A DNA stretch of 64,000 bases from Methylocella tundrae (GTDB lineage Bacteria; Pseudomonadota; Alphaproteobacteria; Rhizobiales; Beijerinckiaceae). The position numbers were made by a program, and so were the translations under genes. Each line of letters starts with the position of its first letter. The stretch's first letter is position 1. Of this stretch, positions 11,263 to 33,610 are shown piece by piece. A model generated the notes under the pieces. It was not told where the DNA came from and made no database searches. It saw nothing but the letters and a program-made list of their open reading frames with translations. The DNA lies in assembly GCF_038024855.1 (NCBI RefSeq), contig NZ_CP139089.1, positions 1,054,001-1,118,000 of the forward strand. The letters are read 5' to 3'.

Positions 11263-12186
11263 TCACGCGCGCTCTGCCAGGCTCTTGAGCGTTCGCGCGA
11301 TCCCCTCGGCAAACGGGACCCGCGTCGACCAGCCAATTTCGCGCGTGGCGCGCGAAGGGTCGAGGACAGAAAAGGGCGCGTCGAACGCGCGCGCCGGACG
11401 CCGGTCGACCTTGACGGGTCTTTGCAGATGCTGCTCGAGGATGGCTATAATGTCGTTCAATGAACGCCCTTCTCCACTGCCGATGTTGAGAGCGAAAGAT
11501 GAATCCCCGGCGCGGGCGGCGCGCATGAGCGCGTCGACGGCGTCGTCGATATAGACATAGTCCCGCACCGTCGAGCCGTCGCCGAAGAGCACGATCGGCG
11601 CGCCGCTCAACGCCGCCTTGCTGAATTGCGTGACGGCGCCGAAAAGCCGCTCCGGGTTTTGTCCGGGACCGAAGAGATTTCCAATGCGGAGCGATACGGG
11701 ACGAATGGTGTTTGAGGCGGCAAAAAGATCAAGATAGGCCTCAACGGTGCGCTTCGAGACGCCATAGGCCGAGATCGGATTCAGCGGATGATCTTCCGTA
11801 GCGCGCGCCTGTTGCAGAGGGCCATAGATCGCGCCGCCGGAGGATGCGAAGACGAAACGCAGGGCCGCTCCAGGCGCGATGCTCTCGATAAGCCGCAAGG
11901 AGCCGACAATGTTTTCGCGGGCGTCCTCGGAGGGCGCGAGAGACGCCTCGGCGGGAATCGTCGACCAGCTCAAATGATAGATCACGTCGATCCCGCAAAG
12001 GATCTCCGGCAAAGGCGCCTTTGGATCTATGAGGTCGATCTGGCGCCATATAAGGCGCGGATGCGGCGCAAAGGGATTAGTCTTGCGTCCGGCCGCGATC
12101 ACGGTTTCACCCGAGGCGAGCAGTGCTGGAACCAGGGCTCGCCCGAGAAAACCGCTGGCGCCGGTAACGAGGGCTTTGCCCGTCAT
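11263..12186 (-). CDS. NAD-dependent sugar-nucleotide epimerase/dehydratase
   Basis: An extended short-chain dehydrogenase of 307 residues that probably modifies a nucleotide sugar for the neighbouring glycosyltransferases. It begins MTGKALVTGASGFLGRAL (Rossmann GxxGxxG). It has the FASSGGAIYGP segment with the catalytic Ser, YGVSK as the Tyr-x3-Lys pair, and RIGNLFGPGQ typical of the GalE/UDP-glucuronate family. The exact substrate is not readable. It sits 13 bp after the GT4 gene and 10 bp before the GT4-methyltransferase gene, so co-transcription is very likely. Confidence 0.88.
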   Translation of the reverse strand: MTGKALVTGASGFLGRALVPALLASGETVIAAGRKTNPFAPHPRLIWRQIDLIDPKAPLPEILCGIDVIYHLSWSTIPAEASLAPSEDARENIVGSLRLIESIAPGAALRFVFASSGGAIYGPLQQARATEDHPLNPISAYGVSKRTVEAYLDLFAASNTIRPVSLRIGNLFGPGQNPERLFGAVTQFSKAALSGAPIVLFGDGSTVRDYVYIDDAVDALMRAARAGDSSFALNIGSGEGRSLNDIIAILEQHLQRPVKVDRRPARAFDAPFSVLDPSRATREIGWSTRVPFAEGIARTLKSLAERA

Positions 12187-12199
12187 GATCGCGGCGCCC

Positions 12200-16950: not shown

Positions 16951-18174
16951 CTAATCGATGTGCCTGCGATCTCGAATGCCGGCGATCAATAGCATCGCCA
17001 CGGCCCAGAGTCCGAAGGCGCATATGCCGACGAAAGCGACCGATCTCGCGCGGCGCGGATATTCGGCAACGTCCGGCTTTTCCGGCGGGACGAAAAGAGC
17101 GATATAGATGTGCTGGCGCTCGGATTCCTCGCGCGCTTTCTCGTAGGCTGCCTGTGCGACTTCGAGAAGACGTTCCGAAAAACGCCGCTCCAACTCCTGC
17201 TGCTCGAACTGCGCGATGGTTCGGGCGGCCGTCTTGGCCTCGCCTTTCGGACTGGTCAGGGCCTCGGTCTGCGCCAAGATCTGGGCGTTAAGAGCCGCGA
17301 TCTGGTCGGACAGGATTTTCTGTTGCGGCGAGTTCGACGCCATAATCCTGAGATTGGCGTCTCGTTGGCGCTCCAGAGACAGCTTTTCCTTTACGACGCC
17401 AAGGAGCCTCGCCGCCGCGAGATCGATCGTCTGCTGCGGATCGACCGTTCCTTCCTTGTTTCGCACGTCTCTAAGGCCGGTGAGAGCGGTGGCGTAACGC
17501 GCGCCGGCTCGCTGCATATCGTCCTCCGCCATGGCGAGGGCGTCCTTGCGCGCTCTGGCGGCGACGCTATCGACCATGCGTTCCGTGGCTTTTTCGACGG
17601 CCCGCGCGATAGCCAGCGCGTCATCGGGCGTAAAGCCTAAAACGCGCACGAGCACCAGCCCCGATACGCGATCGACAGTAACCGAAATCATCGATTGCCA
17701 ATAGCGCCACAGAGCGTCATCGCTCGTTGACGCATCGAAGCGCGAAAGCCAATCCGCTTCGCGCCGCGAAAACATCGCGCGCAGCGAGCCGTCGGCGTCG
17801 AGTTCGCGCACGAGATTGCGGCTTCGCAAATAGTCCGCCGCCATGTAAGGCAAACGTCCGATATCGTTCTGTCCGCCACGGCGCATGAGCGTCGATACAA
17901 TGCTTTGTTCGGCGACAAGGTCGCTGGCCGAGCGGATGCTGAAGCGAAACTCGACGGCATATTTATCGGCGGCGATCAATCCATAATAGAGGCTGGCGAT
18001 CAGAACAGGCAGAATAACGCAAAGAGCGAAGGAAATCTGATGCCAACGCCATGACCCGAATTGATCAATCGGCACGGAGACGCGGCGCAAATCCTCGCGG
18101 AGCACAAAGTGCTCGACCGCAGATTCTCCGGTCGCCCGATCCTCCGGCCTGCTTTCAAGACGCGTCTCGCTCAT
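16951..18174 (-). CDS. Capsule export inner-membrane protein, KpsE/CtrB/BexC family (copy 1)
   Basis: Periplasm-spanning adaptor linking the inner-membrane exporter to the outer-membrane channel. The 407-residue protein has an N-terminal membrane segment (ISFALCVILPVLIASLYYGLIA), a long periplasmic helical domain with heptad-like Glu/Ala/Leu runs at ~190-350, and a C-terminal membrane segment (SVAFVGICAFGLWAVAMLLIAG) preceded by the PxxPDxAEYPRR region typical of polysaccharide co-polymerases. There is no C-terminal tyrosine-kinase domain, which favours the ABC-dependent (KpsE) rather than the Wzc type. It lies 25 bp after its paralogue. Confidence 0.87.
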   Translation of the reverse strand: MSETRLESRPEDRATGESAVEHFVLREDLRRVSVPIDQFGSWRWHQISFALCVILPVLIASLYYGLIAADKYAVEFRFSIRSASDLVAEQSIVSTLMRRGGQNDIGRLPYMAADYLRSRNLVRELDADGSLRAMFSRREADWLSRFDASTSDDALWRYWQSMISVTVDRVSGLVLVRVLGFTPDDALAIARAVEKATERMVDSVAARARKDALAMAEDDMQRAGARYATALTGLRDVRNKEGTVDPQQTIDLAAARLLGVVKEKLSLERQRDANLRIMASNSPQQKILSDQIAALNAQILAQTEALTSPKGEAKTAARTIAQFEQQELERRFSERLLEVAQAAYEKAREESERQHIYIALFVPPEKPDVAEYPRRARSVAFVGICAFGLWAVAMLLIAGIRDRRHID

Positions 18175-18199: not shown

Positions 18200-19501
18200 T
18201 CATCTTGCGTGATCGCGGACGCCGGCGACGGTCAGCGCGATCACCGCCCATGCTGTGAAAGCGCCGATAAGGATCGCCAAGATGGCGAAGCCGCGGCGCG
18301 GAAACAGAGAGCTTTGCGGCGTTGTCGGATCCTCGATGGAAACCAGATAGATATGGCGGCTGTTCGCGTCCGAGCGCGCATTATCCAACAGCTTTTCGGC
18401 CAGCTCGACCCTTTTTTCGGCCAGTTTCTTTTCAACGTCCAGCCGATCATAGTCCGCCAGCGCCGCCGATGCGGTCGAACCGTTGGCGCCTGCGCCCGTG
18501 ATCCTCGATTCGAGCGCGGAGATCTGGGAGGACAGGATGTTCCGGTCCGATTGGAGGATCTTGATTTGCAGCGCGTCCGCGCCGAGCGAGGTGCGCGCGA
18601 TCGCCAGCTTCACTTCGACTTCGGCGAGATCGCGCCGTAATTCCCCAATGGTTTCGCTCAACGAATGGGCGGAATCGAGTGGATCGATCGACATTCGCGT
18701 ATTTCTGAACTGTTCGACGCGCGCGCGCCAAACGGCAAGCTTGTCCATCGCAGCCTTGACCTCGGCCTCTCCCCGCTCGGTCATGTCGCGCCGCATGCGG
18801 TCCAGAAGCTCGTTGACGACGATGTCGCAACGCGCGCGGATGGCGGTTGCGAGGCGCACGGAATCCTGGCGTGAAAACGTTTTGACCTTGACGGTCAGAA
18901 TTCCCGAAGCGATTTCCACCGATGGATCGACCGCCTTGCGCCAGTAACGCAAGAAATCCTCCGGCGATCCTGACGGATTAAATCGCGCAATAAAATCGGC
19001 GCCGGGCGCGCTGAATATGGCGCGCAGATCAATAGCCTTGGACAGGTCGTCGATGATCGTCTGGCTGTGGATATAATCCGCGACGATAAAGACGTCCTGA
19101 CTGGTGTTTAGAGATGCGAGCGTGCCAAGACCGGACGCCGCCAGCGCGTCGCTGCCGGGCAGCGACTCCGTCGTGCCCCGGACGGCGAAACGCATCTCGG
19201 AAATGAACTGATCGGACGCGATGAATTGAAAATAAATGAAGCTCGCGGCGACTGGCAGAACGACAAGGATGATAAAGCTTCGCCAAAACCAGGGTCCGTC
19301 ATCGTCCACATCGATGGGTTTCGCGCCGGCGCCGGCTGCGCGCGAGCCCAATCGCGCCCGAAGAGCAGCAGCTTTGATGGCGATGGCGGCGATTTGCCGA
19401 ACCGATTGGCGGACGCCTGCCCCGACGTCAATCGCGCCAACGGCCAAACGCGGGCCGGGGAGCCTTTGACGAACGGCGTCTTGCCTGATTTCGGACGTCA
19501 T
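18200..19501 (-). CDS. Capsule export inner-membrane protein, KpsE/CtrB/BexC family (copy 2)
   Basis: Second member of the same family as the gene at 16951, 433 residues, and first gene of the minus-strand run. A cytoplasmic N-terminal extension of ~75 residues is followed by a membrane segment (SFIILVVLPVAASFIYFQFIA), a periplasmic domain starting SDQFISEMRFAVRG, a predicted coiled coil (~260-390), and a final membrane segment (GFAILAILIGAFTAWAVIALTVAG) after PQSSLFPRR. The two copies align over their whole length but are clearly diverged, so this is not a recent duplication. They may form a hetero-oligomer or serve two export systems. Confidence 0.87.
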   Translation of the reverse strand: MTSEIRQDAVRQRLPGPRLAVGAIDVGAGVRQSVRQIAAIAIKAAALRARLGSRAAGAGAKPIDVDDDGPWFWRSFIILVVLPVAASFIYFQFIASDQFISEMRFAVRGTTESLPGSDALAASGLGTLASLNTSQDVFIVADYIHSQTIIDDLSKAIDLRAIFSAPGADFIARFNPSGSPEDFLRYWRKAVDPSVEIASGILTVKVKTFSRQDSVRLATAIRARCDIVVNELLDRMRRDMTERGEAEVKAAMDKLAVWRARVEQFRNTRMSIDPLDSAHSLSETIGELRRDLAEVEVKLAIARTSLGADALQIKILQSDRNILSSQISALESRITGAGANGSTASAALADYDRLDVEKKLAEKRVELAEKLLDNARSDANSRHIYLVSIEDPTTPQSSLFPRRGFAILAILIGAFTAWAVIALTVAGVRDHAR

Positions 19502-20146: not shown

Positions 20147-23100
20147 ATGAGAAATCGCGAGGGCGACCGACTGACGCCAACGGTGGAACACGACGCGGAA
20201 GTCGCAATCATAGGACGTTCCTGCAGACTTCCGGGCGCTAATTCTCCTGAGACACTTTGGGATTTGCTGTCCTCGGGACGATGCGCCATATCGCAAGTGC
20301 CGGCTGACCGATGGTCGCTAGAGCGGCTTGGCCATCCAAAGCCCAAGGAGCGCGGGCGCAGCTATACTTGGGCGGCGGGAATTCTCGATGATCCATGGGG
20401 CTTCGATCCAGCGGTCTTCGGCATTTCGCCGCGCGAAGCCGAACAGATGGACCCGCAGCAAAGGCTCCTCCTCGAACTCGCGTTCGAAGCGATCGAGGAT
20501 GCTGGAATCGCGCCATCCTCGCTCGCCGGCACGCACACAGGCGTGTTCATCGGTGGTTCCTCGCTCGACTACGGCAATCTGCGGCTGCACGATCCGGCGG
20601 CGGCTGACGCCTATTTCGCGACCGGCAATACGCTGGCCGTGCTCTCGAATCGCATCTCCTACGTGTTCGACCTGCATGGGCCGAGCTTTACCATCGACAC
20701 CGCTTGCTCGTCCTCGCTCGTCGCTCTCGACGCCGCGGTCGCCGCCATCCGGAGCGGCTCGATCGATACGGCCATTGTCGGCGGCGCCAATGCGCTGGTC
20801 AGTCCTTTCGGCTTCATCAGCTTTTCGCAAGCCACAATGCTGTCGCCGACAGGTCTCTGCCGCGCCTTTTCGGCAAAGGCTGACGGCTATGTGCGCGCGG
20901 AAGGCGGCGTCGTTCTCGTCCTGCGCGCTCTTCGCCGTGCACGCGTTGAAGGCGATCGGCCGCACGCCCTGATCGTCGCCTCGGGCGTCAATTCCGACGG
21001 GCGCACGAGCGGCATTTCACTGCCTTCGAAAAAGCATCAGAGCGCCCTGCTCGATCGTGTCTACGAAGACGCTGGCGTCGATCCGGACGACGTCGCCTTC
21101 GTCGAAGCGCATGGCACCGGGACGCGGGTCGGCGACCCTGTCGAGGCCGGCGCGATCGGCGACGTCCTCGGGCGACGGCGACGCCAGCCGCTGCCGATCG
21201 GATCGATCAAGAGCAATATTGGCCACATCGAGCCGGCCTCCGGTCTCGCCGGCGTGATGAAAGCCATGCTGGCGCTGGAGCATGACGAATTGCCGCGTTC
21301 GCTCCATTGCAGCGAACTCAATCCAGACATCGCCTTTGATGACCTCAACCTCTCCGTCAGCGTCGAACCCGTCGCGCTGGCCCGCGATGGCCGCCCTCGT
21401 TACGCCGGCGTCAGCTCGTTCGGCTTTGGCGGCACCAACGCGCATGTCATCCTCTCCGACGCGGCTCCCGTTCTGACTCGCGGCGCGCCCGCCAAGGCGC
21501 CACAGTTCCTTTTCCTGTCGGCACAGTCCGAAAGCGCTCTCGCAGAACTCGCCCGGAACTATTCGATCCGGCTCGCCGGCGTTGGACCGAATTCTTTTCA
21601 ACGAATCGTCGCCGCGACGGGGCATCGGCGCGAACGTCACGCCGAGGGGCTCGTCATTCCTCTCGGGGCGCCGAAAGCCGTCATCCAGGCGCTTGATGCG
21701 GCGGCGGAACAGGCTGACAATTCACGGCAACTGGCCTCGCCGCATATCGTCCTGGGGTCGGCGATCGAACAAGACGCGCCCGTCGCTTTCGTCTTTTCCG
21801 GCAATGGCAGTCAGTGGCCTGGCATGGGCCAACACGCCTACGAGGCAAACGCCGCGTTTCGCGATCGCTTCAACGCCATCGACGCCCTGTTCCAACCATT
21901 GTCCGGCTGGTCGCTCGCGGCGATGATGTTCGATGCCAATATCGCAATGCATCTCGCGCGAACGAGCATCGCGCAGCCTCTGGTTTTCGCGATCCAGGCG
22001 GCGACGGCTCATTGCCTGACCGGCCTGGGTTTGCGTCCGGCGATGACGCTTGGGCACAGCATGGGCGAAGTCGCCGCCGCCGAGGCCGCCGGCATCCTCG
22101 ACCTCGCCAGCGCCGTCAGTGTGATCTATTACCGCAGCCATCATCAAGAGCTGGTCCGGGACGCCGGCGGCCTCGCCGTCTTGTTCGGCCCGAGGGACGC
22201 CGCCGAAGCATTGGTGGCGGAAATTCCCGAACTCGTCATCGCCGCGCATAATTCGCCGCGGAACTTCACAATTTCAGGCCCTTTTGACGCTCTGGAACAA
22301 TTGGCGAGGGCGAGCCGCGCTTATAAGGCGCGCGTGCGGCGTCTCGACCTCGTCTATCCGTTTCACAGCGACCTCATGGGCCCCGTCGAGGCGCCGCTTT
22401 ATGACGACCTCGCGACACTGGCGCCAATGCGGAGCCGCGTGACTTTCATTTCCACGGTCGAAGCTGATGTCCTGGCCGGCCCCGAACTCGACGCGCTGTA
22501 CTGGTGGCGGAACGTTCGCGAACCGGTTCAGTTCAAGGAGGGAATCGAACGCGCCGCTCATTTGGGCGCCCGGATCTTCGTCAAGATCGGGCCCGGCGCG
22601 ACCCTCATCGCCGACATCAAGGAAACCGCGGACAATATCGGAGCGACGATCGCCGCTTTTCCGGTGCATCAGCAAAAGCCGCTTGGGGATGATCCCTTCC
22701 GGCGCGCGGTCGCCGAGGCGCTGACCCGCGGCGCGGCGATCGACAAGGCCGTCGCATTTGGCGATGATCCAGGACCCGTGGACAATCTGCCAGCCTATCC
22801 GTGGCAGCGAAGAATCTGCCGGCTGGGCGAGACCACCGAAACCTCGGGACTGCTCAGCGTGCGCGCCTGGCATCCCTTGATCGGAGCCCGTTTGGCCGCT
22901 GATGCGCTGGAGTGGCACGCGCAGGTCGATCCGCTGTTGATCCCGGCCCTGGCCGATCATCGAATCGACGGCCAAATCTTGCTGCCGGGCGCAGCCTTCG
23001 CTGAAATGGCGCTCGCCGTGGCTTCGGATTGGCTTGGCTCGAAAACCGTCACGATCGAGGATGTTGAAATCCTCCAGCCGATGATCTTCTCGGCCAATGT

Positions 23101-26100
23101 CTCGCGCCAAATCGTCTGCCGCGCGGCGCCGATCGCTGGGACAATCGAAATCATGAGCCGTCCGCGGCTCAGCAATACGCCCTTTGTGCTCCACGCGAGG
23201 GCCAAAGTCGTACACAGGCCGGGGCCGACACTGCGCTTCCCGGTCCACGATTTGCCGACGATTCCGAAACGGCGGGAAAAAACTGTTTCAGGGCTAGAGC
23301 TTTACGCCAAGGCGCAGCAGTCCGGGCTCGAATTCGGCCCTGCCTTTCGCCAGGTCGCCTCCGCCGCCCGTGAGGGCAAGGCGGGAATTATTGTCAATCT
23401 GCGGTCTACGCAGGCAGATCCTCGCTACGGTCTGGATCCCGCACGCCTCGACTCATGCTTTCACGGTCTCATACTCCTCTTCGCGGATGTGACGGGGACG
23501 GCGCGCGCGCCTGCCTATTTGCCGGTGCGGTTCGGCGAAATCAGACTTGAGCGCCCGGGCGAAGCCATTGCGCAGGCGCATATTGATATAAAGCGCTGCG
23601 ACGAACGAGCGATCGTTGCAGATTTTACCCTGCTCGACGCGGACGGAGAACTCATCGCAAAGCTGCGGGATGCGCGCTATCAGGCCGTGCGCGCGGCGCT
23701 CCGTGGCGATCTCGCCAACCATGCGGTGGCGCAATCCCTGACGCTCGCGGAAGAACCGACCGCGAGCCGGCGCGACGCATGCCTGACGCCCGATGTTTTG
23801 GCTCGGGCGGGGGCGCGCGAAACGGCGAACGCCGCCGCCAGTTCACTGCCCGCCGACCTCGTGCTGATCGAAGGCTGGGCGACGGCGGCCGCCTACCGCC
23901 TCGCTTCCAGGCTGGCGACCGGCAACAGAATCGCGCCAAAGCAGTTGATCTCCGCCGGCCGTTTTCCTCCAGCGCATGGCGGATGGCTGATCACTCTGCT
24001 GAAGGCCCTCGCGGACAGCGGCCTCGCTGAGCCGGACGGCGAGGCCTATCTTCTCGCCGGAGACCTCGATCTGCCTGATCCCGAGGAGATCCTGCAAAGT
24101 TTCGCCGCAGATCACCCGAGGCGATCGGCTGAGCTTCTGCTCGCCGCGCGCACGGGAGCCGCGATGGAGGCTCTGTCCCACAGTGACGCTGCGATTGGTT
24201 CGCTGAGCGAATCAGCGATCGAATCCTTTGAAATCGGTTCGCTCGCAGTCGTCGCCGCCGCCGATCTTCTCGCTGATCTGTTGCACCGATCCTCCGAGCA
24301 TTGGCCGCGCGATCGGGCCCTGCGCATTCTCCAGATCGGGCATGGGCCTTTGTCTTCCCATTCGGTCGGGCTGGCGTTGCGCCATGACGCGCGCCTCACC
24401 ATTTTCGAACCGGATCAAGCCCGGCTCGAGCGCGCGAGACTGGCCTTTTCCCGCGATGCGCGCATCGCCTTCCTCGACAATCTCGAAGCCATCCAAAGCG
24501 GCGGATTTGATCTCGTCATCGCGGCGGACGCGCTGCATCGCATCGCTCCGCAAAAAATCCCGTTGGCGCGCATCGTCGAAACCATTGCGTCAGAAGGCCT
24601 GATCGCCGCGATCGAGCCTGAGGCGTCGCTCTTCCGCGACCTCGTGTTTGGACTTGATCGCGAATGGCCTGCCGAATCTGGCCAAAGCGGCTGCGTTCTC
24701 TCCGCGTCCGACTGGTCCGGCGCGCTGAGATCGGCGGGTCTTCACGCTCTCCTCGCCGAGCCCATCATGACAAAGGCAGGTCCGGCTCTTCTCGTCGCCG
24801 GGCAAAAGCCGAAGGCCGCCGCAAAGGGCAACCGGCTCGCCAAAGCGCTCATCATCCGCGATGGCGATTCCCGAACGATCGAAGTCGTAGCTGCTCTCGC
24901 CGACCGGCTCCACGCCGGGGGCGCCGATTGCCGCGTGGAAGACACGGACGCGCTCCATCGCGACGGACCTTTTGAGGCGGTGGTCTGTCTCTCCGGCCCG
25001 GCGTCAGCGGGGCAAAGCTCGGTCGAGCATCTTGCTGCGCGCTGTCTGTCATTGAAAGCGGCGGCCGAACATCTCGGCAAACAAAGAACGCAATTCTGGA
25101 TCATCACGCACGGCGCACTCCGGGTCGATGAAGATGCGCCCGCATCCGAGGCTGGCGTTTGGGCCTTCGCGCGGACCTTAGCGAACGAGTTTCAGGGGCT
25201 CGTCGTGCGTCGTGTCGATGTTGCGCCGGGACTTCCTCCGGCGATCGAGGCTGAGCGTCTCGCGGAGATCATCGTTTCGGGGACCGCCGAAACCGACATC
25301 GTCGTCGATGCGCGTTCGACCCGCGTGGCGCGGCTGCGCGCGCAAGACGGCGGCGAGGCGCCTGACTTTGGATCGCCCGCGACGGCAAGCCGGCTTGAAA
25401 AGGGCGAGGGCAGCGGGCTTGACCGAATCCGCTGGACGCCGATCGAACGCCAGCCTCCGGCGCCGGGAGAAATCGAAATCGCCGTCGCTGCGAGCGGCCT
25501 CAACTTCCGCGACGTGATGTGGGGGCTTTCCATCCTGCCCGACGAGATGCTGGAGGAAGGCTTCGCCGGCCCGACGCTCGGCCTTGAATGCGCCGGGCAT
25601 GTCGTCGCTGTTGGACAGGGAGTCGACAGATTCAAGACCGGCGACGAGGTCGTCGCCTTCGCAGGGGGGGCCTTTGCCAGCCACGTCACCGTCAATGCCA
25701 ATATGGCGGCGCTGATTCCCGAAGGCCTGCCGCTCGAAGCGGCGACCACCATTCCAGTCGCTTTTCTGACCGCTTATTACGCTCTCGTCACCTGCGCGCG
25801 CCTTGCGCCCGGCGAATGGGTGCTGATCCACGGCGGCGCCGGCGGGGTCGGTCTCGCCGCCTTGCAGATCGCCCGTTGGCGCGGCGCGCGCGCGATCGCG
25901 ACTGCGGGATCCTTGGAAAAGCGCGATCTTGTCAGGACGCTCGGCGCCGAACATGTCTTTGACGGGCGCTCGGGAAACTTCGTCGATGACGTGCGCCGCG
26001 TCACCGGCGGCGGCGGCGTCGCGGTTGTTTTGAACAGTCTTTCGGGCGAAGCGATGGAGCGCAGCATCGGCCTCCTCGAACCATTCGGCCGCTTCGTTGA

Positions 26101-27637
26101 GCTCGGCAAGCGCGACTATCTCGCTAATACCCACATTGGCCTGCGCCCTTTCCGCAAGAATCTCGCTTATTTCGGCGTTGATCTCGACCATTTGATCCTC
26201 GCTCAGGCCGAAAAGGGGCATCAGCTTTTCGAGGAGGTGATGCGCCGCTTCGCGGAGGGCGAATTCTCAGCCCTGCCCTATCGCAGCTTTCCCGCGCGCG
26301 AATTTATCGACGCCATGCGGCTCATGCAGCAATCAGGACATATCGGCAAGATCGTCATCACGCCGCCAAAGCCGGGCGAAATTCATGTGGCGCCATTGAA
26401 CCGTTTCGAGGTGGCGCGCGACAAAACGCATCTCATCACGGGCGGCTTCGGCGGCTTCGGCCTTGCGACCGCGCGTTGGCTCGTCGAGCGCGGCGCGCGC
26501 CATCTCGCCCTCGTTGGGCGCAGCGGCGCGAACAGCCCCGAGGCGCGCGAGGCGCTCGCCGATTTCAAGACGGCCGGCGTCAAAGTGCATGTCGCGGCGC
26601 TGAATATCGCCGACGCCCGCGCTGCGAAGACCCTGTTCCAGACCATTGCGAAAGAGATGCCGCCTCTTGGCGGCGTCATTCACGCTGCGATGGTGCTGGA
26701 TGACGCGGTGATCGCCAATCTCGACTCTGAGCGGCTGAAAATTGTACTGACTCCGAAGGTCGCCGGCGCCGAGCATCTTGATCGCCTGACCCGCGATCTG
26801 CCGCTTGATTATTTCGTGCTGTTCTCATCGGCGACAACCCTGATCGGCAATCCCGGTCAAGGAGCCTATGTCGCCGCGAACGGCTTTCTCGAGGGGTTGG
26901 CGCGGCAACGGCGAGCCGCCGGCAGACCAGCCCTCGCGGTCGCCTGGGGAGGCATCGAAGACGTTGGTCTTCTCGCGCGCAATCGTTCGTTGAAAGAGAC
27001 GCTGGCGAGCCGCGCCGGAGTCAAAGGCATGAACGCGCGCGATGCGCTCAATCTCATGGGCGAGGCTTTGTCGCGTCCGAACCGGAGCGCCGACGAAGCC
27101 GTTCTGGTCATCGCCGAAATGAACTGGACGACTGCGCGAACTCATCTGCCGCTTTTGTCTTCGCCGACCTATGCCGAACTTATTCGCGAAGACGCCGCGG
27201 CTGAAGCCGACAAGCGCGAGAGGATCGACGTGGCGGCTCTCATCGCAACGCGCGCGCCGGAAGATGTCCGTAAAACCATCGTCGACGTGATCGTTGAAGA
27301 GATCGCGCATATCCTTCGATTGCCGGTCGAGAATTTGAACCGCAGCAAGCCGCTGTCGGAAATCGGCCTTGACTCGCTGATGGCCGTCGAACTTGGCGTC
27401 AGCCTCGAAGAGCGCCTGTCGCTCGAGGCGCCGCTGTCGACGTCGGCAAGCGGCTTCAATGTCGGGGAACTCGCAGACCATATTCTCGGTCTTTGCGTCA
27501 ACGCGACGAGCGAAGAGGCTTCGATTGCGCAAAATCTCGCGGATAAACATCTCGGCAAAGGCGTCGCCGACAAAATGGCGCCGCTCACCGCCCTTGTTGA
27601 AGAGAAGAGCCGCGATCTGACGCAAATCCTGCGGTAG
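20147..27637 (+). CDS. Single-module highly reducing type I polyketide synthase (KS-AT-DH-psiMT-ER-KR-ACP)
   Basis: A 2496-residue iterative-type PKS. KS: TACSSS with the active Cys at residue 187, EAHGTGT His 322, SNIGH His 360. AT: GHSMGE Ser 638, with YPFH at the specificity site, closer to malonyl (xAFH) than methylmalonyl (YASH). DH: DHRIDGQILLP with His 938 and LDSCFHG with Asp 1102. Residues ~1390-1560 look like a decayed methyltransferase (LQIGHGPLSS instead of a Gly-rich motif I). ER: NADPH loop GGAGGVG near 1896. KR: TGGFGGFG near 2098, catalytic Tyr 2241. ACP: GLDSLM, phosphopantetheine Ser 2410. The C-terminus is a short charged helix with no thioesterase or reductase. It would make a fully reduced chain that needs an external release enzyme. 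Confidence 0.95.
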   Translation: MRNREGDRLTPTVEHDAEVAIIGRSCRLPGANSPETLWDLLSSGRCAISQVPADRWSLERLGHPKPKERGRSYTWAAGILDDPWGFDPAVFGISPREAEQMDPQQRLLLELAFEAIEDAGIAPSSLAGTHTGVFIGGSSLDYGNLRLHDPAAADAYFATGNTLAVLSNRISYVFDLHGPSFTIDTACSSSLVALDAAVAAIRSGSIDTAIVGGANALVSPFGFISFSQATMLSPTGLCRAFSAKADGYVRAEGGVVLVLRALRRARVEGDRPHALIVASGVNSDGRTSGISLPSKKHQSALLDRVYEDAGVDPDDVAFVEAHGTGTRVGDPVEAGAIGDVLGRRRRQPLPIGSIKSNIGHIEPASGLAGVMKAMLALEHDELPRSLHCSELNPDIAFDDLNLSVSVEPVALARDGRPRYAGVSSFGFGGTNAHVILSDAAPVLTRGAPAKAPQFLFLSAQSESALAELARNYSIRLAGVGPNSFQRIVAATGHRRERHAEGLVIPLGAPKAVIQALDAAAEQADNSRQLASPHIVLGSAIEQDAPVAFVFSGNGSQWPGMGQHAYEANAAFRDRFNAIDALFQPLSGWSLAAMMFDANIAMHLARTSIAQPLVFAIQAATAHCLTGLGLRPAMTLGHSMGEVAAAEAAGILDLASAVSVIYYRSHHQELVRDAGGLAVLFGPRDAAEALVAEIPELVIAAHNSPRNFTISGPFDALEQLARASRAYKARVRRLDLVYPFHSDLMGPVEAPLYDDLATLAPMRSRVTFISTVEADVLAGPELDALYWWRNVREPVQFKEGIERAAHLGARIFVKIGPGATLIADIKETADNIGATIAAFPVHQQKPLGDDPFRRAVAEALTRGAAIDKAVAFGDDPGPVDNLPAYPWQRRICRLGETTETSGLLSVRAWHPLIGARLAADALEWHAQVDPLLIPALADHRIDGQILLPGAAFAEMALAVASDWLGSKTVTIEDVEILQPMIFSANVSRQIVCRAAPIAGTIEIMSRPRLSNTPFVLHARAKVVHRPGPTLRFPVHDLPTIPKRREKTVSGLELYAKAQQSGLEFGPAFRQVASAAREGKAGIIVNLRSTQADPRYGLDPARLDSCFHGLILLFADVTGTARAPAYLPVRFGEIRLERPGEAIAQAHIDIKRCDERAIVADFTLLDADGELIAKLRDARYQAVRAALRGDLANHAVAQSLTLAEEPTASRRDACLTPDVLARAGARETANAAASSLPADLVLIEGWATAAAYRLASRLATGNRIAPKQLISAGRFPPAHGGWLITLLKALADSGLAEPDGEAYLLAGDLDLPDPEEILQSFAADHPRRSAELLLAARTGAAMEALSHSDAAIGSLSESAIESFEIGSLAVVAAADLLADLLHRSSEHWPRDRALRILQIGHGPLSSHSVGLALRHDARLTIFEPDQARLERARLAFSRDARIAFLDNLEAIQSGGFDLVIAADALHRIAPQKIPLARIVETIASEGLIAAIEPEASLFRDLVFGLDREWPAESGQSGCVLSASDWSGALRSAGLHALLAEPIMTKAGPALLVAGQKPKAAAKGNRLAKALIIRDGDSRTIEVVAALADRLHAGGADCRVEDTDALHRDGPFEAVVCLSGPASAGQSSVEHLAARCLSLKAAAEHLGKQRTQFWIITHGALRVDEDAPASEAGVWAFARTLANEFQGLVVRRVDVAPGLPPAIEAERLAEIIVSGTAETDIVVDARSTRVARLRAQDGGEAPDFGSPATASRLEKGEGSGLDRIRWTPIERQPPAPGEIEIAVAASGLNFRDVMWGLSILPDEMLEEGFAGPTLGLECAGHVVAVGQGVDRFKTGDEVVAFAGGAFASHVTVNANMAALIPEGLPLEAATTIPVAFLTAYYALVTCARLAPGEWVLIHGGAGGVGLAALQIARWRGARAIATAGSLEKRDLVRTLGAEHVFDGRSGNFVDDVRRVTGGGGVAVVLNSLSGEAMERSIGLLEPFGRFVELGKRDYLANTHIGLRPFRKNLAYFGVDLDHLILAQAEKGHQLFEEVMRRFAEGEFSALPYRSFPAREFIDAMRLMQQSGHIGKIVITPPKPGEIHVAPLNRFEVARDKTHLITGGFGGFGLATARWLVERGARHLALVGRSGANSPEAREALADFKTAGVKVHVAALNIADARAAKTLFQTIAKEMPPLGGVIHAAMVLDDAVIANLDSERLKIVLTPKVAGAEHLDRLTRDLPLDYFVLFSSATTLIGNPGQGAYVAANGFLEGLARQRRAAGRPALAVAWGGIEDVGLLARNRSLKETLASRAGVKGMNARDALNLMGEALSRPNRSADEAVLVIAEMNWTTARTHLPLLSSPTYAELIREDAAAEADKRERIDVAALIATRAPEDVRKTIVDVIVEEIAHILRLPVENLNRSKPLSEIGLDSLMAVELGVSLEERLSLEAPLSTSASGFNVGELADHILGLCVNATSEEASIAQNLADKHLGKGVADKMAPLTALVEEKSRDLTQILR

Positions 27638-27721
27638 CTCAAAGGCGCGGGGAAGGCTTCGATTCGCTCGTAGCTTTTGCATGATCGCGCCTTTCTCGCC
27701 GCCGCCCTTCGAGGCTCGCCA

Positions 27722-29014
27722 ATGGACTGCCCGGTTGCCTATGACATCACAAGACTGGCGACGCGTGTTCTGAACCGCACGCCGAACGGCATAGACCGCA
27801 TCGATTCCGCCTTTGCGCGTCGTTTGCTTGGTTCGGCGACTGCCGGTCATCTGGCGATGATGATGACGCTACAGGGACCGCGCATCATCTCTGGCGCCGC
27901 AGCCGCCGATGTCGTGAACGGAATTTTCCTCCATTGGGGCGAAGACGAGGCTCCCGGGGAAGATGAAAGCTATCGCCGCATCGTTAACTGGCTCTCCGGC
28001 GAGACAAGCTCATTCAAAGCCGCTCAGCGCGTCGCGCGCGGGCGGAGCGGGCAAGCCTCGGGCGTCGCGCGCTGGATCAGACAACACGGATTCCCGATCG
28101 GGCAGTCGCCTGTCGCCGCCCTGCCCAAAGGCGCGCGTTACCTCAACGTCAGCCAGTTTCCGCTCTGGATTCCGAGCTATTTCCGCTGGCTGAAACAACG
28201 TCCCGACGTCAAGGGCGTCTTCTTCATTCATGATCTGCTGCCGATCGAGCACCCAGAATATTTCCGTAAAGCCGAGTATGATCGTCATTTGCGCCGACTC
28301 GTTAATCTGGCTGAGTTCGGAGCCGCGGCCATCGTCACGACGCAGGTGGTGAAGGAGGCTCTCGAGGCTCATCTTGCGCCACTCGGCCGCAAGGATATGC
28401 CCATCCTCGTTGCTCCGATCCCGGCGGCGCCGATCTTTTCCGATCGCCGGGCCGCGTCTTCGGAACTGACGGACAGTCCCTATTTCGTCGCCTGCGGCAC
28501 GATCGAGCCGCGCAAGAACCATCTTCTCTTACTGCATGTCTGGCGCGAACTCGTGCGGCGCGGCGGCGCTTCAGCCCCCAAGCTGGTTCTGATCGGCGCC
28601 CGCGGATGGGAAAACGAGAATGTCGTCGACCTGCTGGAGCGCTGTCACGCGATCGGCAATCACGTCATCGAGGTTTCTGGGCTTTCGACGCCAGGCCTGA
28701 AGGCGCTGATGGGTGGGGCGCGAGCGCTGCTCATGCCGTCATTTGCGGAAGGATATGGGTTGCCCATCGCCGAGGCGCTCGCCGTGGGAACGCCGGTCAT
28801 CGCCTCGGACATTGCAGCCTTCGAGGAAAGCGGCGCAGGCCGCATCACGGCGCTGAGCCCGATCGACGGCGAAAAATGGCTGGAGACGATCCGCGCCTTC
28901 GCCTCCCCTAATTCTCCCGAGCGCGCAGCCGCGAAGGCGCAGACCGATCGATTCGAGGCGCCGAGCTGGAGCGGCTATTTTGCCAAGGCCGAAGCGTTCC
29001 TTTCGGATCTGTAA
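27722..29014 (+). CDS. Glycosyltransferase family 4 protein of the PKS locus
   Basis: 430 residues; ATG chosen because GAGG lies eight bases upstream and the protein then opens MDCPVAYDITRLATRVLNRTPNGIDRID, as in relatives. GT-B fold: FFIHDLLPIEHPEYF in the acceptor domain, YFVACGTIEPRKNHLLLLHVW at the donor-domain start, and LMPSFAEGYGLPIAEALAVGTPVIASD as the donor-binding motif. It follows the PKS by 84 bp on the same strand, so it may be co-transcribed. Its 3' end overlaps the convergent phosphatidyltransferase gene by 40 bp. It resembles the GT4 at 59355-60995 in layout and motifs. A role in glycosylating the PKS-derived lipid is inference. Confidence 0.87.
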   Translation: MDCPVAYDITRLATRVLNRTPNGIDRIDSAFARRLLGSATAGHLAMMMTLQGPRIISGAAAADVVNGIFLHWGEDEAPGEDESYRRIVNWLSGETSSFKAAQRVARGRSGQASGVARWIRQHGFPIGQSPVAALPKGARYLNVSQFPLWIPSYFRWLKQRPDVKGVFFIHDLLPIEHPEYFRKAEYDRHLRRLVNLAEFGAAAIVTTQVVKEALEAHLAPLGRKDMPILVAPIPAAPIFSDRRAASSELTDSPYFVACGTIEPRKNHLLLLHVWRELVRRGGASAPKLVLIGARGWENENVVDLLERCHAIGNHVIEVSGLSTPGLKALMGGARALLMPSFAEGYGLPIAEALAVGTPVIASDIAAFEESGAGRITALSPIDGEKWLETIRAFASPNSPERAAAKAQTDRFEAPSWSGYFAKAEAFLSDL

Positions 29015-29787
29015 GGATCGTGAGTGTGGATGAATGTTTTGCTTTCGAGCGCACACGCGTCCTCACCACGCAGCCGCTTTGCGATTTTCAGCGTATTGAC
29101 GACGAACAGAGACACGAACACGACGCCGACGAGGCAAAAAACGAGATCATAGGCCGAGAATGTCTGACCCAAGACCGCGATCTTCGAAGGGCCCGATAGA
29201 TACATCCAGAAATTGATGAGGATGAGGCCAACGCGGAGTTCGGTCGGTCCAAGCGCCAGGAAAGACAATTGGAAGCTGCCCGAAACGTGATTGTACAAAA
29301 AGACGTACATGCACAGCAGAAAATAACCAATGAGGACGAACAGCGCGACATCGAGGCGCATATAGGCCGAAAAACCCAAGCCGCCCAGAATCACCAGATT
29401 GCACAGGGCGTCGACGGTATGATCGAGAAAATAGCCGTAGCGCGGTCTCTCGATTCGCCTGAAGCGGGCAAGGCTTCCATCGAGCGAATCGCCGAACCAG
29501 TGGATGAAAAATCCCAGGGTGGCCAGCCAAAAAAAAGCCGGATTGAACCGGCTGCCGACATATCCCGCAAAGACGATTCCGGCCCCGCCGACGCCGAGCG
29601 CGGTCAAACGATCCGGCGTCATGAAGCGCGGCATGCGCGCGCAAAGCCAATTCAGAAGCGCACGCTCGCGCCGCGCCAAAATATTGGTCTGAATACGAAT
29701 CGTGGGTTGCGTCTTGACCCTTGATGCGGTCTCCTGACCAAGACCGTTTGATATGGTCTCCTGACCAAAACTGATGGTATGCGTCAA
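28975..29787 (-). CDS. CDP-alcohol phosphatidyltransferase family membrane protein
   Basis: Integral membrane enzyme that would transfer a phospho-headgroup between a CDP-linked alcohol and a second alcohol. The 270-residue protein carries the full signature D-x2-D-G-x2-A-R-x9-G-x3-D-x3-D starting at Asp 100, with five to six membrane segments around it. The N-terminal RRERALLNWLCARMPRFMTPD helix matches the subfamily with the W-F-G-D-S-L-D-G motif. The first ~25 residues contain a GQET repeat and may not be translated. The enzyme could make a phospholipid or attach a phospho-headgroup to the product of the adjacent PKS/oxoamine synthase genes; the substrate is unknown. It is divergent from the membrane glycosyltransferase. 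Confidence 0.85.
   Translation of the reverse strand: MTHTISFGQETISNGLGQETASRVKTQPTIRIQTNILARRERALLNWLCARMPRFMTPDRLTALGVGGAGIVFAGYVGSRFNPAFFWLATLGFFIHWFGDSLDGSLARFRRIERPRYGYFLDHTVDALCNLVILGGLGFSAYMRLDVALFVLIGYFLLCMYVFLYNHVSGSFQLSFLALGPTELRVGLILINFWMYLSGPSKIAVLGQTFSAYDLVFCLVGVVFVSLFVVNTLKIAKRLRGEDACALESKTFIHTHDPYRSERNASALAK
29728..29768. repeat. Two direct copies of a 14-bp motif containing GGTC-TCCT-GACC
   Basis: The motif GGTCTCCTGACCAA occurs at 29728-29741 and again at 29755-29768, 27 bp apart. Each copy is itself an inverted repeat (GGTC-N4-GACC). If the phosphatidyltransferase starts at 29787, they encode GQET twice, nine residues apart. If it starts later, they lie in its promoter and could be paired operators. 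Confidence 0.55.
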
Positions 29788-29922
29788 AGTCTCGCCCCCG
29801 ACTTACGCTCTACTCGAAGTAATCCGTTCATTCATAAGCAATGATCGCAGCACCACCCCCGGCTACCAAGCCTCCATTTCGAGTCTGAGTAAAATAGTCA
29901 GGCACTGTGTCAAAAAAGCGCC

Positions 29923-31110
29923 ATGTCCTTAGCTGTCCCCACTATTTTGATTATCTGGATCATCATCGAGGTGATAAGCACGCTCTCTGCGTGGCGCTAC
30001 ACCTGGGGATTGCCGCGGGCGGAGGTCCCGGGCAGGACCCCTCCCGTGGCGGTCATCGTCGCCATCAAAAACCGGTCGGCCTTGACCGAGGATTTTCTCC
30101 AGCGTCTGCGCGCTCAGGATTATCCCGACTACCGCATTGTCGCGGCGGTTGAATCAGGCGACGATCCGGCCTTCGCCTTGCTGACCGAGGCGGCCCGCAA
30201 GCCCGGCGCGAATCTGGCCACCGTCATCGCAGGTCCCGTTGAGCACGGCGGCCAAAAGGTGTGGAATCTCCTCGCGGCTCTGAAGGCGATCCGAAGCGAG
30301 GACGAGATCATCGTGTTTACCGACGCCGATACGCTGCCCGCTCCCGAATGGCTGGCGCGGCTCGTCTCGGCGCTGATCGACGCCGGCTATGACTCGGTGA
30401 CCGGCTACCGCTGGATGATTCCAACGGATGGGCGGATCAGTTCGGCAGTCGTCGCGGCGGCGAACGCCTCGATCGTCACCCTGCCGCGCATTCCGGACGT
30501 CATCAATTTGTGTTGGGGCGGCGCCACGGCGGTCCGTCGCGAGACGCTGGAGCAGATCGACATAGCGGCCTATTGGCGAGGCGCGATCAGCGACGATCTG
30601 CAGATGACGCGCGCGCTCAACGCGGCCGGCCGCGCCATTTTTTCACCGCGCCAGAGCCTCCTTCTGTCGCCGATTGCAATGGATTGGAAGGAGGCTTTCG
30701 CTTTCGGTCAGCGGCAATATCGCCTGATGCTGACGCATGTGCCGATGCTTTGGCTTTTCGCCGCGCTGACCACCGGTCTGCCGATCATCGGCGCCTGTCT
30801 CGCCGTCTTCCTCGCGCTTCAAGGGCAGATCGCTGGATTTTTCACGCTGGCTCTATCGGCCGGATTTGGCGAGTTGCGCTATCAGAACCGACGGCGCATC
30901 GTCCGCTCGCTCTGGCCGGAAACGCAGGATTGCGACCTTGCGCTCTATTGGCGGGTCGAACGTTTCTTGCGGCCTCTATGGTGGAGTTTTCATTTCGTCT
31001 GCATTCTCGGCGCACTTGGATCCAGGCGCCTGCGCTGGGCCGGCATCGACTATCTCGTCCGTAGTCCGCAGGACGTCGTCGTTCTGCGCCGCCGGCGCCC
31101 GCCCGCATAG
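29923..31110 (+). CDS. Membrane glycosyltransferase, GT2/GT21-like (ceramide-glucosyltransferase or HpnI type)
   Basis: 395 residues with one N-terminal membrane helix, a cytosolic GT-A domain and two or three C-terminal hydrophobic segments. Landmarks in order: VAVIVAIKN, the QDYP segment, an ESGDDPA Asp, the FTDADTLP D-x-D metal site, WGGATAVRRE, the SDDLQMTRAL Asp, and QRQYR in the place of the Q-x-x-R-W motif. This order is that of ceramide glucosyltransferases and hopanoid HpnI proteins, which act on lipid acceptors, although the last Trp is replaced. Family-level reading is firm; the lipid acceptor is inference from neighbours. It is convergent with the oxoamine synthase (21 bp apart). 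Confidence 0.78.
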   Translation: MSLAVPTILIIWIIIEVISTLSAWRYTWGLPRAEVPGRTPPVAVIVAIKNRSALTEDFLQRLRAQDYPDYRIVAAVESGDDPAFALLTEAARKPGANLATVIAGPVEHGGQKVWNLLAALKAIRSEDEIIVFTDADTLPAPEWLARLVSALIDAGYDSVTGYRWMIPTDGRISSAVVAAANASIVTLPRIPDVINLCWGGATAVRRETLEQIDIAAYWRGAISDDLQMTRALNAAGRAIFSPRQSLLLSPIAMDWKEAFAFGQRQYRLMLTHVPMLWLFAALTTGLPIIGACLAVFLALQGQIAGFFTLALSAGFGELRYQNRRRIVRSLWPETQDCDLALYWRVERFLRPLWWSFHFVCILGALGSRRLRWAGIDYLVRSPQDVVVLRRRRPPA

Positions 31111-31131
31111 GCTTCGTCAAAGATCCGCTCT

Positions 31132-32532
31132 TTAGAGCCCTCTGTCGCCCTTGGCCAAGCCCATGATGTTGCGGAAGAAGTCGCTTTCGTCGATTTCCCT
31201 GATCGAATCGGCGAGCGCGTCGACGGCAAGATGTATCTGCTCCGGCGTATGTTCGGACGTCAGAAAGAAGCGCAGCCGGGCGGCGCGCTCCGGCACCGCC
31301 GGATAGATGATCGGCTGCACATTGACGCCGCGTTCGAAGAGCTTTTGGCTGACCGCCACGGCGGCGACGGAATTTCCCACAAGGATCGGTATGATCGCCC
31401 GTCCCGATGAGGCGCCCGCGTCCAATCCGCGAGCCCTCGCGGCCGCGAGAAAGAGCCGGCTCGCCGCGGTGAGGCGCTCGACCCGCTGTGGTTCGCGGCG
31501 CAAAATCGAAAGGGCCGTCGCAGAGGCGGCCGCGAGCGGCGGAGACAGACCGACGGAATAGACAAACCCGCCTGACATGCATTTCAGATATTCGACGAGC
31601 GCGGTCGACCCCGCAATGAATCCGCCACAGCTGGCGAGAGTCTTCGACAGCGTGCCCATCCATATATCGACGTCGCGCGGATCGGCGCCCGCCTGCTCGA
31701 AGAGGCCGTAGCCCCTGTCGCCGAGGACGCCGAGTCCATGCGCCTCATCAACCATCAGCCATGCCTCATGGCGGCGTTTGATCTCGATGAGACGCGGCAA
31801 GTCCGGACTGTCGCCGTCCATACTATAGAGACCCTCGACCACGATCAGCACGCGTTCGAACTGGTCGCGCATCGCGGCGAGAAGCGAATCGAGCGCCTCG
31901 CAGTCATTGTGCGGGAAGCTCCGTCTTTCGGCGCGCGACAGCGCCGCGCCAAGGACGATGCTGTTATGCGCGAGACTGTCATGCACGATGAGGTCTTTGG
32001 GGCCCAAAAGCGCGCCGATCGTCGAGACATTGGCGCCGTGGCCGCTGACGAAAACGACGCAGCTTTCCTGCTGATAATGTTCGGCTAGAGCCTGTTCGAG
32101 CGTACGATGCCCGGGGCGTTCGCCGGCGACGACGCGGCTCGCCGAGGCCGACGTTCCAAAGTCGTCGATGGCGGCGTGAGCCGCAGCGCGGACTTCAGGA
32201 TGCTGGTTCAGCCCGAGATAATCATAGGACGAAAAATTCACGAAGCGGCGGCCGTCCATCACGGTCGTCGCGCCCGCCGCGGTTTCGTGCAGCCTGAAGA
32301 AAGGATTGTCGAGGCCGACAACAGCCGCCATAGAGCGCTGGAGCCTCAATTCCTGATAGCCGGGCAGATTTTGGAAGTCCATTAAGCCATCGCGAGCGGT
32401 GCGTTCCGGCTCCGCGGATATCGTTGAAGGCTCCTTCGGCCCAGCCGGCTGAGCTCTCAGGCGATTGAGAACGAGCTTATCGAGTCTTTGCCGATCTTCT
32501 TCATCAAGGCCCGGCCGTTTACGTGGCTTCAT
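31132..32532 (-). CDS. PLP-dependent alpha-oxoamine synthase (serine palmitoyltransferase / BioF-like)
   Basis: This enzyme would condense an amino acid with an acyl thioester, with decarboxylation, to give an amino ketone. The start ATG follows AGGA by seven bases; GTG 32538 is an alternative. The 466-residue protein has an N-terminal charged extension of ~75 residues, FVNFSSYDYLGL, HDSLAHNS (the His that stacks on PLP), the cofactor Asp in MVDEAHGLGVLG, and the Schiff-base Lys at residue 297 in GTLSKTLASCGG. The C-terminal domain starts near PIIYPAVPE. The SKTLAS form differs from typical BioF and is closer to synthases using long chains. With a thioesterase-less PKS nearby, it is the natural candidate for chain release. 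Confidence 0.88.
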   Translation of the reverse strand: MKPRKRPGLDEEDRQRLDKLVLNRLRAQPAGPKEPSTISAEPERTARDGLMDFQNLPGYQELRLQRSMAAVVGLDNPFFRLHETAAGATTVMDGRRFVNFSSYDYLGLNQHPEVRAAAHAAIDDFGTSASASRVVAGERPGHRTLEQALAEHYQQESCVVFVSGHGANVSTIGALLGPKDLIVHDSLAHNSIVLGAALSRAERRSFPHNDCEALDSLLAAMRDQFERVLIVVEGLYSMDGDSPDLPRLIEIKRRHEAWLMVDEAHGLGVLGDRGYGLFEQAGADPRDVDIWMGTLSKTLASCGGFIAGSTALVEYLKCMSGGFVYSVGLSPPLAAASATALSILRREPQRVERLTAASRLFLAAARARGLDAGASSGRAIIPILVGNSVAAVAVSQKLFERGVNVQPIIYPAVPERAARLRFFLTSEHTPEQIHLAVDALADSIREIDESDFFRNIMGLAKGDRGL

Positions 32533-32656
32533 CGTCACATCCTGCGCGTTCCAGAGCTTAGCCTCAATAGCCGATCACCCGTCAAACGTCCATTTCCAGA
32601 GCGCGGCGCGCCTGATAGGGTCCGGCACGCCCGCATCGCACCCATCCGGCAATCTG

Positions 32657-33610
32657 TTGACCATTTCTGAAGCGCCAAGCGACCATCCGCCCTGTCCCAT
32701 CACCGGCGATCCCGCGACGGAGCTTGTCCAGATCGTCAGTTGCGGCTTCCTGGCGCGCCTTTGGGAGATCGAATTCAAGGTCAATGCGCGCCCGAGCTTT
32801 GGCGGAGCGACGCATCTTTCCTTGTGGCGCTCGCCCACTGGCTTGCTGTTCTTTTCGCCGGCGTTGGTCGGCGATGCGGAATTCTACCACGGGTTCTACA
32901 GAACCCTCGGCCCCAAATTATTTCCACGCGAAGATCGCCCGCGCAGCGAATTTCTTCTTGCCGCAGCTTATATCGAGGCAGGCGCGCGCGTTCTCGACGT
33001 CGGCTGCGGCTATGGCGGATTTCGCCCGTTTGTCACCCATGCGAATTATTTTGGCCTTGACCCGCATTTCGTCGGCGCCGCCGACGCTGATTGGGCTTGC
33101 GCGCAGACTCTCGCCGAGCATCTCGCCGGCAACACCGCGTCCTATGATGCGGTCTGCGCGTTTCAGGTCATCGAGCATGTCGAAAAGCCCGCGCAGATCT
33201 TCGCCGAAATGGCGGCGGCGGCAAAGCCCGGCGGCAGGGTCATCGTCGGCGTTCCACATGTGCCGTCGGCGATGGCGCGCATTCCTAATTTTCTTCTCAA
33301 CGCGCCGCCGCACCATCTGACCTGGTGGAGCGAGGGCGCCTTACGCGCCCTGGCGCAAAGCCAGGGACTCATTGTGGAAACGATCCGGCATGTCGCATGG
33401 TCGAAAATGGACAGCCTCGTCTATTGGATCGAACGCTGCTCGCCGGTGCGCTGCAAGGACATCTATTTCAAACCGGCCTGGTCCTGGCACGCCTCCGCCT
33501 TAATGGGCTTCGCACTCGGTTCCGTCATGGACAGGCTGTTTGGACCTCCACGGCGAACGCGGGACGAGGGCAGCGGCCTCCTTCTCGTCGCGCGAAAGCC
33601 GGGCGGCTAA
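32657..33610 (+). CDS. SAM-dependent methyltransferase, class I
   Basis: About 317 residues if begun at TTG 32657. The frame is open further upstream, but that part overlaps the divergent oxoamine synthase promoter and reads as non-coding. The protein opens CPITGDP, a pattern common in this methyltransferase group. It has motif I as RVLDVGCGYGGFRPF, the acidic ribose-binding end in YFGLDPH, motif II in YDAVCAFQVIEHV, and GGRVIVGVPH as motif III. The conserved HHLTWWSEGALRAL is typical of methyltransferases in glycan and lipid loci. It may O- or N-methylate the product of the PKS locus or a glycan; there is no direct evidence. Confidence 0.75.
   Translation: MTISEAPSDHPPCPITGDPATELVQIVSCGFLARLWEIEFKVNARPSFGGATHLSLWRSPTGLLFFSPALVGDAEFYHGFYRTLGPKLFPREDRPRSEFLLAAAYIEAGARVLDVGCGYGGFRPFVTHANYFGLDPHFVGAADADWACAQTLAEHLAGNTASYDAVCAFQVIEHVEKPAQIFAEMAAAAKPGGRVIVGVPHVPSAMARIPNFLLNAPPHHLTWWSEGALRALAQSQGLIVETIRHVAWSKMDSLVYWIERCSPVRCKDIYFKPAWSWHASALMGFALGSVMDRLFGPPRRTRDEGSGLLLVARKPGG

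Follow-up and report, generated by a model that had tools for sequence, protein, structure and literature searches.

The window analyzed here, a stretch of 64,000 nucleotides from the 4.42-Mb genome of Methylocella tundrae (C3:1054001-1118000, C3 being contig NZ_CP139089.1; genome code G000), contains a fully reducing type I polyketide synthase (PKS) gene of the RkpA/WcbR/SgaA type at 20147..27637 on the forward strand. Pfam and NCBIfam matches and intact domain motifs revealed ketosynthase (KS), acyltransferase (AT), dehydratase (DH), enoylreductase (ER), ketoreductase (KR), and acyl carrier protein (ACP) domains in the order KS-AT-DH-ER-KR-ACP, and Pfam gave no thioesterase match in the protein. 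To the right of the PKS lie genes for a GT4 glycosyltransferase (27677..29014, forward; PF00534), a CDP-alcohol phosphotransferase (CDP-OH-PT; 28975..29787, reverse) recognized by PF01066, its motif, and a structure comparison that indicated a phosphatidylinositol phosphate (PIP) synthase-like fold, a GT2/GT21 membrane glycosyltransferase that resembles HpnI and ceramide glucosyltransferase (29923..31110, forward; HpnI model at 78.5 bits, below its cut-off of 310), a pyridoxal phosphate-dependent alpha-oxoamine synthase (AOS; 31132..32538, reverse), and a class I S-adenosylmethionine-dependent methyltransferase (MT) with an uncertain start codon (32465..33610, forward; PF13489). The original prediction had named these six gene types as lying together, and open reading frame (ORF), Pfam, and NCBIfam checks confirmed every one of them at its coordinates.

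Pfam, NCBIfam, and PDB matches together with a tree assign the AOS to a PKS-paired clade of the RkpG/WcbT/SgaB type. The tree had 113 rows, 14 loci (duplicates or short contigs) having been excluded beforehand and L135 and L154 left out because of a stop in the matched piece; the labels of its named rows were based on flanks of up to 10 kb. The window AOS grouped with the PKS partners of Sinorhizobium meliloti, Paraburkholderia, and Pseudomonas in a 99-row clade (SH-aLRT, 97), separate from bioF, from 5-aminolevulinate synthase (ALAS), and from a second AOS of the family (10 rows; SH-aLRT, 99); SgaB is absent from this tree. Among the matches listed, the closest named locus is that of M. silvestris TVC, whose AOS is 81% identical. 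A housekeeping role with no tie to the PKS, whether as 8-amino-7-oxononanoate synthase (bioF) or as some other AOS, is highly improbable for the window enzyme. Although its top NCBIfam model is the bioF model TIGR00858, its score of 368 bits falls below the cut-off of 426.45, whereas the true bioF, at C3:1835545, reaches 439.1 bits and lies between bioA and bioD, and ALAS is likewise a separate gene (C3:562493). The bioF identity, which the original prediction had set against its own proposal, was therefore rejected. In the PDB, the best sequence matches are serine palmitoyltransferases, by a narrow margin (216.5 bits versus 213.9 bits for a 2-amino-3-ketobutyrate ligase), and the cut-offs of the NCBIfam serine palmitoyltransferase models were not reached (294.6 versus 640, 288.7 versus 500, and 213.4 versus 670 bits); because of this narrow lead and these shortfalls, the amino acid used by the AOS is not fixed by sequence alone.

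The PKS and the AOS form a real, conserved pair. Genomes were compared in a family set of 119 and a class set of 385, both drawn from larger groups. In the family set, the PKS (E ≤ 1e-250) was found in 24 of 119 genomes and the AOS clade (E ≤ 1e-120, a threshold chosen post hoc from a gap in the match list) also in 24, with both present in 21, so that the co-occurrence proposed earlier as a check was borne out. A PKS without the AOS occurs in G048 (a fragmented assembly), G079, and G093, and the AOS without a PKS occurs in G002, G025, and G095. The named loci are the best 80 of at least 568 and thus lean toward near relatives; at 72 of the 79 that could be judged (L132 leaves no room), no more than 1.5 kb separates the AOS from a PKS located upstream on the same strand, the median gap being 141 bases. 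The seven misses comprise L058 and L059, where the PKS is near but rearranged, L109 and L110, where the PKS match ends further off, and L084, L100, and L108, where no PKS match was found. On a plasmid of Planktothrix agardhii (L016 8581-16179), PKS and AOS are a single stop-free ORF of 2532 aa. The window PKS is 40% identical to that of S. meliloti and 52% identical to that of Methylobacterium bullatum. On two Burkholderiaceae plasmids, an LpxC-like deacetylase is annotated between PKS and AOS (L012 14052-14966 and L013 14033-14959).

In the window, as in the rkp-1/wcb capsule module, the pair stands beside capsule export genes. A KpsE/BexC/CtrB family gene (18200..19501, reverse; TIGR01010 at 212 bits, below the cut-off of 437.5) is the divergent neighbor of the PKS in each of the four genus members present in the set. 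It is adjoined by a second KpsE-like gene (16951..18174, reverse; 407 aa), which has no Pfam match and shares the same capsule-protein matches, and a KpsD/Wza-like polysaccharide export protein with Poly_export and SLBB domains (5299..6483, reverse) is 56% identical to an AOS-adjacent protein of Methylobacterium bullatum. From a GT4/methyltransferase ORF at 9033-11336 through the PKS to the MT, gene order is kept in three sister genomes; KpsT and another KpsE adjoin the MT in two of them (G040 and G076) and lie directly left of the conserved stretch in the third (G103). The original prediction had overlooked this capsule context, a module of the rkpA/rkpG kind to which PKS and AOS belong. Modules of this type have long been suspected of being the source of a capsule lipid anchor.

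The link to capsule genes extends beyond the genus. Counting as capsule type any KpsC/S, KpsD, KpsE, KpsM, KpsT, or lipoteichoic acid (LTA)-synthase-like match of at least 80 bits, we found one or more such genes at 35 of the 46 named PKS-AOS loci of at least 19 kb, a count biased upward by queries taken from such clusters; the same queries found none at 11 second-AOS loci and none at two bioF/ALAS loci. Seven of eight loci on plasmid records have capsule-type genes, the exception being Planktothrix, where none was found near the fused PKS-AOS. In the class sample, KpsS was present in 6 of 13 genomes with the AOS versus 12 of 372 others (p = 6e-6, not corrected for kinship). We weighed, as an alternative, a free phospho- or glycosphingolipid destined for the membrane or serving as a secondary metabolite, with the capsule genes as chance neighbors. 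The GT21-like glycosyltransferase and the CDP-OH-PT are headgroup-type enzymes, the 11 remaining long loci show no capsule gene, and the SgaAB lipids of Pseudomonas are free sphinganines and proposed phosphoglycerol derivatives (PMC12134224), all of which would suit such a product. We nevertheless consider it unlikely, given the contrast between PKS-AOS and second-AOS loci, the constant KpsE neighbor in the genus, and the presence in the same genome of a separate, conventional-looking sphingolipid locus.

The nearest characterized system is SgaAB of Pseudomonas fluorescens MYb115, in which an iterative PKS and an AOS produce C24-28 sphinganines, and purified SgaB accepts L-serine almost exclusively, in preference to alanine and glycine; a phosphoglycerol sphingolipid structure was proposed for derivatives heavier by 154 Da, and the count of homologous putative PKS-AOS pairs came to 6,101, mostly in Burkholderia (PMC12134224). 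The terms capsul, wcb, and rkp are absent from the main text of that paper. The window shares with SgaA and SgaB the iterative, monomodular PKS and the AOS; serine-dependent sphinganine synthesis has been demonstrated for Sga (PMC12134224). By locus tags, and not by comparison with the MYb115 sequence itself, the short-chain dehydrogenase/reductase (SDR) SgaC lies five steps from sgaB, in contrast to the window, where the SDR candidate is encoded elsewhere and CDP-OH-PT, GT4, GT21, and MT genes are added. On a Pseudomonas plasmid (L014), four annotated genes separate AOS and SDR, a spacing that, judged from locus tags, equals that of sgaB and sgaC; among them are genes for an LTA-synthase-like protein with a sulfatase fold and a capsule protein of family PF05159. 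A phosphoglycerol transferase in a cluster of this type would account for phosphoglycerol sphinganines, which resemble the phosphatidylglycerol extended by KpsS/KpsC.

The same kind of PKS and AOS adjoins capsule genes in Sinorhizobium rkp-1 (rkpU-rkpA-rkpG-rkpH-rkpI-rkpJ) and in Burkholderia wcbR/wcbT; the individual gene names in our rkp-1-type locus (L010) are presumably those. Of the genes in the S. meliloti locus, those for an SDR, an LTA-synthase-like protein, and a PF05159 protein have no local counterpart in the window, which carries CDP-OH-PT and GT4 instead. An AOS also releases a reducing-PKS chain in the fungal fumonisin and AAL-toxin pathways, which the original prediction cited as known examples; the bacterial rkp/wcb capsule loci and SgaABC are closer. 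Conventional bacterial sphingolipid synthesis, with serine palmitoyltransferase and ceramide synthase, has the AOS chemistry in common with the window, and in this genome the conventional-looking locus lies elsewhere (L005). Escherichia coli group 2 capsules (KpsMTED, KpsS/KpsC), with which this genome shares KpsD-, KpsE-, and KpsT-like export proteins, are built on phosphatidylglycerol and extended by KpsS/KpsC with poly-Kdo (Kdo, 3-deoxy-D-manno-oct-2-ulosonic acid) (PMC11041684). In the window genus, in contrast, PKS and AOS are added and KpsS was not found at E 1e-15 in the own and three sister genomes, a result of one KpsS query that did not extend to a genome-wide search for PF05159. The Vi capsule of Salmonella Typhi, whose lipid terminus is an acylated N-acetylhexosamine, is a precedent for an ABC-exported capsule with a non-poly-Kdo lipid terminus; the portion of that source considered here mentions no PKS or AOS (PMC12220298).

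We lean, with modest confidence, toward reading the window locus as the lipid-making arm of a capsule-type surface polysaccharide, with a PKS-AOS sphingoid base as the lipid terminus of the exported polymer; the product, substrate, headgroup chemistry, and anchor role are what we infer from the genes. Working iteratively, the PKS would build a long, saturated acyl chain on the ACP it carries, and the AOS would condense this chain decarboxylatively with an amino acid and so release it. The amino acid is probably serine; serine specificity and a sphinganine product are in print for another PKS-AOS pair (PMC12134224). The resulting 3-ketosphinganine-like base would be reduced by an SDR encoded elsewhere (candidate at C3:505.5 kb), CDP-OH-PT and GT4, perhaps with GT2/GT21, would add a phospho- and sugar headgroup, and the polysaccharide would be grown on the sphingoid lipid and exported via KpsD/KpsE/KpsT-type machinery. 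The headgroup step appears to fall to an LTA-synthase-like enzyme and KpsS/KpsC-type Kdo transferases in many relatives. A broader proposal is more tentative, and we regard it as possible though doubtful: the anchor of proteobacterial rkp/wcb-type capsules would be a PKS-made sphingoid base (sphinganine phosphoglycerol, a lyso-phosphatidylglycerol mimic extended by KpsS/KpsC), and in the Beijerinckiaceae CDP-OH-PT and GT4 would have taken the place of the phosphoglycerol and poly-Kdo steps, so that sphingoid-anchored capsules would exist in a second kind. A sphingoid base is a likely product of the window locus, and bacteria already offer a published precedent for it in SgaAB (PMC12134224). 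From the original prediction, the amino lipid with a PKS-built chain thus gains from the conserved pair and the SgaAB sphinganines, while for its headgroup-capped free form the neighboring genes suggest a polysaccharide anchor instead.

At the sequence level, two headgroup gene sets were not found together in the family genomes with the pair. Among the 21 family genomes with PKS and AOS, CDP-OH-PT (E ≤ 1e-57, again chosen post hoc from a gap in the match list) occurs in 13 and KpsS in 7, both in none, and neither in 1; at 1e-20 the CDP-OH-PT list grows to 25 genomes without altering either the count of 13 among the 21 or the lack of overlap with KpsS. GT4 adjoins CDP-OH-PT in 11 family genomes of six genera (G000, G007, G009, G035, G040, G073, G076, G095, G102, G103, and G110), and the two are neighbors also in the named metagenome-assembled genome (MAG) L059. 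At the 46 long named loci, an LTA-synthase-like protein, a putative phosphoglycerol transferase, is present in 15 and KpsS/KpsC-type Kdo transferases in 22; an RkpI/LTA-synthase-like PF00884 protein was not found at E 1e-20 in the own and sister genomes, with one query. The window CDP-OH-PT is 81% identical to Msil_2725 of M. silvestris BL2 and has the fold and motif of its family, with 9 residues between AR and G where the motif, which we take to be DxxDGxxAR...GxxxDxxxD, has 8. Its best PDB sequence matches are choline/ethanolamine phosphotransferases, and structure comparison ranks PIP synthases first.

No RkpH/SgaC-type SDR was seen within the window locus. The candidate at C3:505.5 kb, of 286 aa, is 43 to 48% identical to the nine best-scoring cluster SDRs. 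The second AOS of this genome (C3:3631637) is 49% identical to the window AOS and stands in a locus (L005 7590-11445; C3:3631.6-3635.4 kb) with a 392-aa weak-GNAT protein and a desaturase with a sphingolipid Delta4 N-domain. The AOS and the 392-aa protein occur together in all 11 such loci compared, the own genome included, and the desaturase in 9, making this a conserved, conventional-looking sphingolipid-type locus of the family without a PKS. In these loci, which served as controls, 3 of 11 gave an SDR match and 2 of 11 a weak match to the PKS query (103 bits, 28 to 31%), the latter probably from a separate ketosynthase gene. Because two of the 11 have, near the second AOS and next to a weak ketosynthase match, an SDR 66 to 68% identical to that at C3:505.5 kb, the candidate may belong to the second-AOS pathway and serve both. 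In the family genome G009, the second-AOS match contains in-frame stops.

Several observations weigh against a capsule anchor made by this locus. In the window, 3.5 kb separates the PKS from an AOS on the other strand, and throughout the window genus the AOS lies on the opposite strand 3.4 to 4.6 kb from the PKS, with GT4, CDP-OH-PT, and GT2 between; the two genes are thus not an adjacent unit as in 72 of 79 named relatives, and we call the locus a variant rather than a plain SgaAB-type member. Elsewhere in the family, PKS and AOS are on separate contigs (G003, G007, and G066) or about 160 kb apart (G086). Besides the 11 long named loci without a visible capsule gene, the KpsT-like gene of this genome, with its KpsE, is away from the locus at C3:3.69 Mb, and KpsM was not found in the own-genome stretches read, which were not supplemented by a genome-wide search; L145 gave a weak 36.6-bit match. 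The RkpH query prefers another SDR, at C3:1394610 (96.4 bits), over the C3:505.5 kb candidate (85.7 bits). On the tree, the non-overlap of CDP-OH-PT and KpsS comes down to two or three independent contrasts, short of significance, and 5 of the 10 class-set AOS genomes outside the family have neither gene at the cut-offs used; a strict either/or of the two is weakened. Nor is KpsS a specific marker: the PKS-AOS pair is present in only 7 of the 14 family genomes that carry it.

The role of CDP-OH-PT itself is also affected. The closeness of its structure to PIP synthase suggests a CDP-diacylglycerol donor rather than transfer to a sphingoid base, and G009 has CDP-OH-PT and GT4 beside KpsD and KpsM (L147 7964-11573) without PKS or AOS of this clade, so that these two genes do not need the PKS-AOS lipid, and the view that CDP-OH-PT belongs solely to that lipid is weakened. 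CDP-OH-PT and GT4 might instead use CDP-diacylglycerol to make a phosphoinositol-like glycolipid of their own as the primer of the polysaccharide, leaving the PKS-AOS lipid another role in the locus. This appears somewhat unlikely, since 13 of the 15 genomes with CDP-OH-PT at the threshold used also have PKS and AOS (not corrected for kinship), and one of the remaining two, G048, is a fragmented assembly with the PKS.

The left part of the window encodes dTDP-rhamnose supply on the forward strand, with rmlC (1804-2376) and rmlD (3386-4315) identified by Pfam and rmlB-like (2373-3443) and rmlA-like (4349-5266) genes assigned from Pfam class and gene order. Pfam matches identify polysaccharide-locus glycosyltransferases and an epimerase at 6703-9018 (forward) and 9033-11336, 11263-12216, 12200-13738, and 13839-15848 (all reverse), a set in the same order in sisters G040 and G076 and, except for its first gene, in G103. 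A 351-aa ORF (15856..16911, reverse), to which Pfam gave no family, has a relative of 30% identity inside a Shinella capsule cluster. On the right, the locus is bordered by minCDE. An MT near GT2 and AOS was found also in G007 and in the gammaproteobacterial MAG L087, where SDR, LTA-like, PKS, AOS, GT2, and MT genes lie in a row (48-12519), so that GT2 and MT follow the AOS outside the Alphaproteobacteria too. Farther along the window, the reverse strand encodes consecutively a penicillin-binding protein, an alpha-2-macroglobulin-like protein (1937 aa), and an 1886-aa ORF without a Pfam match at 1e-5 (39452-53233), followed by the molybdenum cofactor-related genes for a MobA-like NTP transferase, a MoCF-domain protein, and XdhC (54289-56934).

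Since the description of rkp-1 in the 1990s, the lipid that holds rhizobial K-antigens and related capsules has apparently remained an open question (PMC3557214). In the open-access literature, with subscription papers mostly outside the scope, no title among those listed was seen to join a PKS/AOS sphingolipid to a capsule lipid anchor. Taken together, the rkp-1 anchor question and the 2025 SgaAB sphinganine finding yield a testable expectation, namely that the polysaccharide carries a sphingoid base as its lipid terminus. If this is true, many of the 6,101 putative PKS-AOS clusters (PMC12134224) could be envelope genes.

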